From the NCBI GenBank assembly GCA_900314395.1, contig OMVB01000138.1, positions 1 to 63,172 on the forward strand: DNA of 63,172 nucleotides, given 5' to 3'. Under the pieces are notes generated by a model that saw nothing but the letters and a program-made list of their open reading frames with translations, did not search any database and was not told the origin of the DNA. Shown here in pieces: positions 1-1,977 of the stretch; within the stretch, counting starts at the first letter, position 1; each line of letters begins with the position of its first letter. The stretch comes from an uncultured Prevotellaceae bacterium (GTDB taxonomy: Bacteria; Bacteroidota; Bacteroidia; Bacteroidales; UBA932). The translations under genes were made by a program, and so were the position numbers.

Positions 1-828
1 GAGGTTTCTTCGCAGATCGCGGATGTGTGCCGTGTTTTGGCTTCCGGCCGGACTTGCGCCCTTGTTGTCCGCAAAGACACTTTCTCCAAATCTGACCCTG
101 TCATTTCGACCCCTGATTCTGTCATTTCGACCCTTGGTTCTGTCATTTCGACCGAGCCCGAAGGGCGAGTGGAGAAATCCCTCTCCAGGGAAACTGCAAT
201 CCAAATGGTTGCGGGGGCAGCGGGGCCTTCAGACGTAATAGTATCATCTACGGGAATGATCAGCAGGGAACTTTTTGAGTTCCGTGAGGCTGCCGGACAG
301 GGGCATGAAAGGGATTTCCTGACGGTTGGCTCAATGGGGCATGCAAACCAGATTGCTCTTGGTATTTCCCTGGAGAAGCCGGGCCGCCGGGTCTGGTGTT
401 TTGACGGCGATGGTGCCGTTATCATGCATATGGGCTCAATGGCTACGGTGGGTGTCAAGGGGAAGTCTAATTTTGTTCATGTGGTTTTCAATAACGGGGC
501 GCATGATTCTGTGGGGGGACAGCCTACGGTTGGCCTGCAGATTGACCTTCCGGGTATTGCCCGTGCCTGCGGCTACCGCAATGTTCTTTCTGTTTCAACA
601 GAAAAGGAACTGTTGGAGGCTCTTGGTTCTGTCATTTCGACCCCTGGTTCTGTCATTTCGACCCTTGGTTCTGTCATTTCGACCGAGCCCGAAGGGCGAG
701 TGGAGAAATCTCTCTGCGGTCCGGTCTTCCTGGAAATAAAAGTCCGGAAGGGCAACCGCCCGGACTTGGGCCGTCCTACGACCACTCCGCTGCAGAACCG
801 GGATGCTTTCATGAAGTTTCTAAAATAG
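1..828 (+). CDS. ppd: phosphonopyruvate decarboxylase, C-terminal part (5' end outside window)
   Basis: The reading frame is open from base 1, so the N-terminal half is missing. What remains is the thiamine-diphosphate-binding half: ISRELFEFRE, then the cofactor motif from GSMGHANQIALG to CFDGDGAVIMHMGS and NNGAHDSVGGQPT, ending in KVRKGNRPDLGRPT. These segments are typical of phosphonopyruvate decarboxylase, which turns 3-phosphonopyruvate into phosphonoacetaldehyde and CO2 in phosphonate biosynthesis. The next gene is a matching phosphonoacetaldehyde reductase, which supports the call. Two blocks (bases 98-180 and 629-710) encode SVIST-type heptapeptides that do not belong to the family. 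Both are in frame and fall in variable linkers, so the enzyme may still be active. Confidence 0.85.
   Translation, partial: EVSSQIADVCRVLASGRTCALVVRKDTFSKSDPVISTPDSVISTLGSVISTEPEGRVEKSLSRETAIQMVAGAAGPSDVIVSSTGMISRELFEFREAAGQGHERDFLTVGSMGHANQIALGISLEKPGRRVWCFDGDGAVIMHMGSMATVGVKGKSNFVHVVFNNGAHDSVGGQPTVGLQIDLPGIARACGYRNVLSVSTEKELLEALGSVISTPGSVISTLGSVISTEPEGRVEKSLCGPVFLEIKVRKGNRPDLGRPTTTPLQNRDAFMKFLK
98..180 (+). repeat. palindromic repeat block inserted in frame in ppd (copy 1)
   Basis: Two 21-bp units starting CTGTCATTTCGACCC (98-118, 119-139) are followed by a longer unit (140-180) that runs through GAGCCCGAAGGGCGAG to GGAGAAATC, an imperfect palindrome. The block is translated in frame, with 7-residue units (SVIST plus two residues) and then EPEGRVEKS. 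It lies between the Rossmann-like middle domain and the TPP domain of the decarboxylase. Confidence 0.85.
629..710 (+). repeat. palindromic repeat block inserted in frame in ppd (copy 2)
   Basis: Almost the same architecture as the block at 98-180: two 21-bp units (629-649, 650-670) and a terminal palindromic unit (671-710). It is translated in the same frame as copy 1. It separates KELLEAL from GPVFLEIKV, which are normally joined by a short loop in this family. Confidence 0.85.
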
Positions 829-834
829 CGTGGG

Positions 835-1977
835 ATGCAGCAGGTACTACAAGGGATATCGGCGTTGAAAACGGCATTGGAAGGCAGCCGGAGGGTGCTT
901 TTGGTGTGCGATGGCTCGTGGCCTTTTTTAAACATCGGCCCTTCTGTTGAAGCAGCAATCGGTGGTATCGACGCAAATTTTTTAAGGTTCAGTGATTTCG
1001 CTTCAAATCCTCAGTATGAGTCTGTTCGCAAAGGGATAGAGGTTTTCAACTCGGGGGGCTGCGATACTATTGTGGCTGTCGGTGGCGGAAGCAGTATCGA
1101 CGTTGCAAAGTGTATCAAGTTGTTCTGCCGTATGTCCCCGGGGAAATTGTTCTTTGAGCAGCCGTATTCAGATACAGGAATTAAGCTGATAGCTATTCCT
1201 ACTACTGCCGGAACGGGCAGTGAATCAACGCGTTACGCTGTCATTTATTATGATGGCGCCAAGCAGTCCATTACTCATTCCAGTATTGTTCCGGATTTTG
1301 CTGTCCTGGAGCCGTCGGTGCTTGGCTCGCTGCCGGTGTATCAGAAAAAGTGCACCATGATGGATGCGCTTTGCCAGGGGATTGAGTCCTGGTGGAGCGT
1401 GAATGCGACGGATGAGTCCCGCGAGTATTCCCGCAAGGCTATAGAAACTATAATGAACAATTGGGAAGAGTATATCTTCGGGGCGGCAGCCGGCCAGGCG
1501 GCTGGCAGCAGTGCCGCTGCAATTATGCTGGCAGCCAATTATGCCGGAAGGGCTATCAATATAACGCAGACCACCGCGCCACACGCATTCAGTTATAAGC
1601 TGACATCCCTTCTGGGCCTCCCTCACGGCCATGCTGTAGCCCTCTGCCTCCCGGAAATTTGGAAGTTCATGCTGGATTCCGTGTCATTCCGGCCGAGTGG
1701 AGGAAACTCCCTTATGGCGGTGTTCACCGACATCGCCAATGCCATGGGGGCAGAAACTCCGGAATCCGCAATAGCCCTCTTCCGCTCCCTATTGACCAAG
1801 CTGGGACTTTCACGTTCTGCCACAGAATCGGAGAAATCTCCCTCCCTTCTTGACACCCTGTCCGCATCCGTCAACCCTATCCGCCTGGCCAACAACCCCA
1901 TTCCAATCACCACCATCCAGGCCCGCGAAATCTACGCCAGAATCCTTGAAAAAAGTTTACCAGACAGAGCAAAATAA
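835..1977 (+). CDS. iron-containing alcohol dehydrogenase, probable phosphonoacetaldehyde reductase
   Basis: A 380-residue protein of the iron-dependent (group III) alcohol dehydrogenase fold. The nucleotide-binding signature VAVGGGSSIDVAK, the TTAGTGSE loop and the metal region (MMDALCQGIES, APHAFSY, LPHGHAVAL) are all visible. Starting 7 bp after the decarboxylase stop, it most likely reduces phosphonoacetaldehyde to 2-hydroxyethylphosphonate; this substrate is inferred from the neighbour. The usual metal-binding His of the DALxH motif is Gln here (DALCQ). As far as I recall, Gln is common in phosphonate-cluster members, so it need not mean loss of activity. Two stretches (1681-1711, 1827-1846) look like decayed palindromic repeats translated within the gene. 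Confidence 0.75.
   Translation: MQQVLQGISALKTALEGSRRVLLVCDGSWPFLNIGPSVEAAIGGIDANFLRFSDFASNPQYESVRKGIEVFNSGGCDTIVAVGGGSSIDVAKCIKLFCRMSPGKLFFEQPYSDTGIKLIAIPTTAGTGSESTRYAVIYYDGAKQSITHSSIVPDFAVLEPSVLGSLPVYQKKCTMMDALCQGIESWWSVNATDESREYSRKAIETIMNNWEEYIFGAAAGQAAGSSAAAIMLAANYAGRAINITQTTAPHAFSYKLTSLLGLPHGHAVALCLPEIWKFMLDSVSFRPSGGNSLMAVFTDIANAMGAETPESAIALFRSLLTKLGLSRSATESEKSPSLLDTLSASVNPIRLANNPIPITTIQAREIYARILEKSLPDRAK
1681..1711 (+). repeat. degenerate palindromic repeat inside the alcohol dehydrogenase gene
   Basis: GTGTCATTCCGGCCGAG followed by TGGAGGAAACTCC resembles the repeat at 140-180 with its central hairpin deleted. It is translated in frame as SVSFRPSGGNS. Partial similarity only. Confidence 0.5.
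1827..1846 (+). repeat. possible repeat remnant inside the alcohol dehydrogenase gene
   Basis: AATCGGAGAAATCTCCC matches the 3' end of the palindromic repeat family (GGAGAAATC followed by TCTC). It is short and could be coincidental. Confidence 0.3.

Follow-up and report, generated by a model that had tools for sequence, protein, structure and literature searches.

A TGTC-tagged palindromic repeat lying in frame within core genes of an uncultured Prevotellaceae bacterium and its relatives

This study focused on two nearly identical blocks of palindromic sequence within a phosphonopyruvate decarboxylase gene (ppd) of an uncultured Prevotellaceae bacterium, which are probably copies of a variant of the CGTC-tagged REP elements. 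This variant is scattered over the source genome and many others of the genus, and within genes it would be kept wherever it leaves the frame open and lands in a loop or linker. The observations comprise the repeat family and its distribution, the in-frame positions of copies, orthologous sites that are empty or differently filled, a bias in tandem periods, and a stem with covarying arms. The same DNA segment would become an extra peptide in unrelated proteins, in loops of many core enzymes, and the in-frame insertion of palindromes, for which Rickettsia is the best-known case, now also covers a large gut Bacteroidales group.

The blocks in ppd and the family they belong to

The window, meaning the whole stretch of DNA that was analysed, comprises bases 1–63172 (63,172 nt) of contig C30 in a draft genome of 2.3 Mb and 187 contigs. 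Because the window begins at the start of the contig, the front of ppd is missing; the remaining open reading frame has TIGR03297 as its best NCBIfam match (E 1.2e-78, 264.7 bits, below the model cut-off of 312.5). The relevant features are as follows.

1..828, + strand: rear part of the phosphonopyruvate decarboxylase gene, carrying both blocks (open reading frame and family match)
99..140, + strand: block 1, two 21-nt units, each TGTCATTTCGACC plus an 8-nt spacer
141..179, + strand: block 1, terminal 39-nt imperfect palindrome, TGTC...AAATC
622..629, + strand: CTTGGTTC, left of block 2 and equal to the blocks' second spacer; the 21-bp unit may have originated here
630..671, + strand: block 2, two 21-nt units
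672..710, + strand: block 2, terminal 39-nt imperfect palindrome
835..1977: iron-containing alcohol dehydrogenase, the next open reading frame (best NCBIfam match the phosphonate type TIGR03405, below its cut-off)

Together the blocks form a direct repeat (98–184 and 629–715) of 87 nt that is 98% identical, with starts 531 bp apart and two differing positions, and both share the single open frame 1..828. In each of them TGTCATTTCGACC occurs three times at 21-bp spacing, the first two copies within the units 99–119 and 120–140 in block 1 and 630–650 and 651–671 in block 2, while the last is extended to the 39-nt palindrome, which ends in GGAGAAATC. The first-pass annotation had described in-frame palindromic repeats in this gene, and these are indeed present, although each block is more aptly seen as a 5' half present three times, with the last copy complete. 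With up to two mismatches allowed, the window holds nine matches, including the six exact ones of the blocks, whereas 100 shuffles average 1.54 and never exceed 6. In the gene that follows, a candidate third copy (TGTCATTCCGGCC, position 1682) was rejected, as two orthologues have no residues missing there.

The 13-mer TGTCATTTCGACC has 37 exact copies in the genome (19 on one strand, 18 on the other) against none for a control read backwards, and TGTCATTTCGAVC has 69 exact sites. The 13-mer is present in 39 of 149 relatives, comprising 33 of the 90 within the genus, three of which hold 28 to 34 copies, and six of the 59 outside it. Four of those six are single-copy, no more than the background given by the reversed control, which matches once in 7 of the 59. 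By sequence, the ppd blocks belong to a short palindromic repeat that is scattered over the source genome and many genomes of the genus. Ten contigs of the source genome (C30, C70, C171, C13, C54, C103, C149, C170, C76 and C148) have copies no more than 110 bases from an end, so that the repeat probably breaks the assembly.

An exact 35-mer, TGTCATTTCGACCGAGCGAAGCGAGTGGAGAAATC, was found in at least 120 stretches in named genomes. Among the 80 matches listed, 65 are from Bacteroidales or Bacteroidia MAGs and 15 from others, namely Clostridia and Ruminococcaceae MAGs, one Planctomycetes MAG (Sedimentisphaerales), and isolates of Bifidobacterium panos, simiiventris and biavatii. Two of these 15, both from Bifidobacterium, lie in a frame of more than 150 codons, which may or may not be a gene. 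In the isolates of the three Bifidobacterium species (L213, L217, L244 and L251) the 35-mer often has a reversed partner about 20 nt downstream.

Structure of the element and its relation to known repeats

Copies have a common build, with at least one 5' half, each with a spacer typical of its locus, followed usually by one complete element. When the tag and the inner bases were anchored and five stem positions left free, a Watson–Crick pair was found in 358 to 364 of 385 copies at each position, the first two being A–T in 360 and T–A in 358. Ten complementary arm pairs were seen at least three times and differ by paired changes, among them ATTTC/GAAAT (262), ATGTT/AACAT (15), ATCCT/AGGAT (15), ATTCT/AGAAT (14) and ATCTC/GAGAT (14); the sample is biased towards ATTTC because many loci were retrieved with TGTCATTTCGACC. 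Across 48 distinct arm pairs, 75 of the 144 cells at positions 3–5 are paired, compared with a mean of 44 and a maximum of 62 in 1000 shuffles. Inside the five outer pairs, G and A stand opposite A and G, followed by a short inner stem that closes on GAA; GCGAAGC is an unusually stable DNA hairpin. Predicted single-strand folding energies for six sequences were no better than those of shuffles, and the claim of a structure therefore rests on covariation. At lengths of 27, 35 and 39 nt, the element leaves five of its six frames open, with one reverse frame closed.

In 121 copies the left neighbour is a pyrimidine in 94% and the right neighbour T in 93%; the putative 3' tail of the element reads C, followed by T in 93% and by C in 57%. 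No target duplication of 2 to 9 nt was detected beyond shuffles in these copies. A search for an occupied and an empty site in near-identical DNA found no such pair (in ksgA, the relatives compared share about 83% identity), and the ends of insertion are therefore putative. A copy would sit between a pyrimidine and TC (Y/TGTC...AAATC/TC, slashes marking the ends), with no target duplication seen.

The closest published relatives are the CGTC REPs (Di Nocera et al. 2013; PMC3733652). According to the parts of that account drawn on here, these have at one end an unpaired tag, CGTC or often TGTC, with CCTC allowed, a stem of 8–9 bp that starts with complementary AT, a loop of 4–5 and a 3-nt tail that is mostly CCA. 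They occur in five phyla, including Bacteroidetes, have no linked transposase, include Rickettsia conorii RPE-4 and RPE-6 and Neisseria dRS3, and have some intragenic copies in frame, with TruB among the decorated genes (PMC3733652). The element shares with them the tag (as TGTC), the AT stem start, in-frame copies in genes and, in the source genome, the lack of a linked Y1 gene, and it may have a short unpaired tail as they do. It departs from their uninterrupted stem, having five Watson–Crick pairs, then opposed G and A, then a short inner stem; because G·A mismatches interrupt this stem, it is regarded as a variant rather than a member of the superfamily. It also forms tandem 5' halves, whereas grouped elements are called rare in the same parts of that account, and its host group, the Bacteroidales, is not named in them. 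In a test of the tag, hairpins followed TGTC in 220 of 798 cases, CGTC in 29 of 509, and six control tags in 0–1.5%, in loci mostly retrieved by a TGTC sequence.

Like the GTAG REPs associated with RAYTs, the element is a short palindrome that occurs in clusters and has some intragenic copies, but its tag is TGTC, and the Y1 loci of the source genome are not flanked by it as the Y1 genes of GTAG REPs are flanked by their repeats. With Rickettsia RPE-1 it shares in-frame palindromic insertion into unrelated protein genes, including TruB; the RPE-1 inserts are described as longer. The Rickettsia analogy drawn in the first-pass annotation holds; RPE-4 and RPE-6 are published as CGTC REPs, with which the tag and AT start are shared. 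Its remark that it knew of no equivalent described for Bacteroidales has to be corrected: CGTC REPs, some of them in frame, had been published with Bacteroidetes among their hosts (PMC3733652, as far as covered), and a literature search for such inserts in Bacteroidales genes found no report. Searches for GTCATTTCGACC returned nothing, and those for six further sequence strings listed titles on other subjects. What is new is the extent in core genes, the loops repeatedly filled by different repeat types, and the codon-phased arrays.

Copies within genes, their periods and their empty sites

A census of loci fetched by sequence gave 139 distinct arrays at 113 loci in seven genomes, covering the exact TGTCATTTCGAVC sites in the source genome and part of the copies in the other six. 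Forty of the 139 lie in frame in open reading frames with a Pfam-named domain, which is the meaning of 'in gene' here and is a prediction only. The Pfam scan covered 40 of 45 candidate reading frames, six being without a family; an array at L124, which precedes the probable gene start, was excluded from the forty, and two at L141 are less sure, being upstream of the named domain. The hosts include KsgA, MurB (two copies), RlmN, TruB (an inverted pair), MetG, TrmB, AtpG (three places), DnaX, superoxide dismutase, UDP-glucose dehydrogenase, prephenate dehydrogenase, urocanase, CitG and altronate dehydratase, and the copies use both orientations and represent all reading phases. By genome, the in-gene arrays number 13 of 40 (G000), 16 of 19 (G057), 8 of 28 (G006), 2 of 8 (G005), 1 of 8 (G066), 0 of 23 (G068) and 0 of 13 (G026). 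The share varies sharply by species, as between G057 (loci L155–L166) and G068 (L115–L134; Fisher p 6e-9).

The suggestion that a 21-bp unit, being a multiple of a codon, can multiply without breaking the protein agrees with the tandem periods. In multi-unit arrays, all periods are divisible by three in 9 of 9 within Pfam-supported genes and in 7 of 22 outside them (Fisher p 0.0008), and the single periods are so in 14 of 14 and 11 of 33, respectively. Six arrays of unclear setting were kept out of this test; counted as genes they give 14/15 versus 7/22 (p 0.0002), and counted as outside, 9/9 versus 12/28 (p 0.005). None of the 22 outside arrays looked like a broken gene continuing in another frame, as judged by inspection of reading frames without homology. 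In seven of them a gene on the same strand stops 1 to 20 nt upstream, and the following reading frame has its own start. At L174, L184 and L186, in G066 and G026, tandem arrays with periods of 19, 24 and 19 separate what seems to be one and the same pair of genes and directly follow the stop codon of the first.

Orthologues show that the sites can be empty or otherwise occupied. Of five Ppd orthologues in the genus (the comparison leaves out the L049 row, a wrong reading frame), three (G027, G017 and G003) lack any insert, and two (G016 and G060) have both sites occupied by Ala/Ser/Gly-rich stretches of unrelated sequence; similar peptides in all orthologues, the outcome named beforehand as contrary to an insertion, were not found. 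An AlphaFold2 model of the ppd fragment (seven sequences, mean pLDDT 67) falls below 50 at residues 30–57 and 215–236, largely the two inserts, and at 169–178, which is not an insert. The nearest solved relative is Bacillus subtilis RhiEF, whose separate beta subunit starts at ppd-fragment residue 62, directly after block 1, and block 1 therefore lies in a linker where the enzyme is split elsewhere. The proposal that the inserts occupy tolerant loops fits both the low-confidence stretches of the model and the orthologues.

In UDP-glucose dehydrogenase, where the source genome encodes RDSVISSEVEKSH, five of eight relatives are empty; G003 has two canonical-looking CGTC hairpins, one of the CGTCATTGCCGGC...GCCGGTCG... 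type and one of the inverted CGTCATGCCCGAC type, while G073 has a C-rich repeat at the same site and G051 a short unrelated insert. The KsgA loop after 'VDAL' is filled in 4 of the 30 genes read, with the element in G057 and G051, its reverse in G064, and a CGTCATGCCCGG hairpin in G019; this count leaves out L363, which is near the frame start, and the KsgA of L345 does carry a copy. In MurB, hairpin repeats of several types occur in 12 of the 25 genes read, mostly in three loops, a count that leaves out L331 (a chance match) and five loci with no reading frame. As far as sequences can tell, the element coexists with canonical-looking CGTC REPs in the same protein loops. Because related species offer sites that are empty, filled or filled otherwise, the entry of repeats into genes and its cost to the protein become testable. 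There is also a caution, in that a variable protein loop in a genome of this kind may reflect repeat DNA rather than adaptation.

The history of the ppd array may be partly legible. CTTGGTTC flanks block 2 on the left and recurs as its second spacer, and the left flank of block 1 differs; the putatively copied array would have its ends at (C)TGTC and directly after AAATC. The simplest reading would be that flank and 5' half multiplied at block 2 and that the finished array was then copied to block 1, so that one codon-phased array may have moved as a unit. This reading is based on a single block pair, with gene conversion as an alternative.

Origin of the copies and alternative explanations

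Under the variant-REP reading, copies would arrive by transposition with the enzyme supplied in trans, perhaps acting on a hairpin in single-stranded DNA. The 5' half would then multiply in tandem at the site, presumably by slippage. Outside genes arrays of any length are found; inside them a copy would be retained if readable in frame and in a loop or linker, and only three-base steps were found there, and the encoded peptides would be mostly neutral. A bolder version, which we regard as possible but less likely than not, is that an active repeat system remodels the core proteome of the genus, with codon-phased arrays moving as units between loops (ppd block 2 to 1), loops of MurB, KsgA and other enzymes serving as standing acceptors that each species refills with other types of repeat, and a putative enzyme acting on the G·A-interrupted TGTC hairpin.

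The first-pass annotation had offered a RAYT (Y1) transposase of the host as the mobiliser, as is thought for GTAG REPs, and such genes do exist, three in the source genome and matches in 21 of 25 chosen genomes of the genus. IS200/IS605 enzymes are known to make no target duplication, and none was seen for the element either. The search for a mobiliser covered Y1 genes by domain search, flank scan and counts, and its results make this explanation unlikely: TGTCATTTCGA repeats occur within 1.5 kb of Y1 at none of the three source-genome loci and at one of 30 others (two more have TGTCATTCTGA types), and the mean number of Y1 genes is 2.3 in 15 element-bearing genomes compared with 2.8 in 10 others, with a rank correlation to element number of -0.11. 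The CGTC superfamily was likewise published, in the parts covered, as having no linked transposases (PMC3733652).

It could also be speculated that the inserts are beneficial, the peptides or hairpins tuning host proteins or mRNAs and being selected for this, as the repeated filling of the same MurB and KsgA loops by different repeat types might suggest. We consider this improbable, since tolerance of the loops suffices to account for the recurrence, many orthologues have no insert, and both orientations and all phases are in use, so that the encoded peptides differ.

That the two ppd blocks are an artefact of assembly or binning is very improbable. The repeat probably breaks assemblies, with copies near the ends of ten contigs including C30, but the blocks are distinguished by two positions and by their flanks, they share a single open reading frame in which the sequence between them is conserved, and similarly decorated genes occur in independently assembled genomes. 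Least probable of all is that the peptides are old inherited protein repeats merely resembling mobile DNA, as the expanded linkers of two Ppd orthologues at the same two sites might hint, for those expansions are unrelated in sequence and the same DNA is also found between genes or elsewhere beyond them, in both orientations and every phase.

A second, C-rich repeat was noted, with the core ...GACCCCTCCCA..TGGGCCCCTCCC...GAGGGTGGCC..., at L164:1957, L399:1035, L400:2145, L382:1454, L210 (reverse strand, 2698) and L018 (source genome, C63). For eight loci of this repeat Rfam gave four matches, none reaching the gathering score, and GGGCCCCTCCC has two sites in the source genome compared with one for the reversed pattern. 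Some copies are in frame in MurB, TrmB and UDP-glucose dehydrogenase. Nineteen of 25 distinct copies lie within perfect inverted arms of 12–30 nt that differ by locus, as would result from an inverted duplication of the flank.
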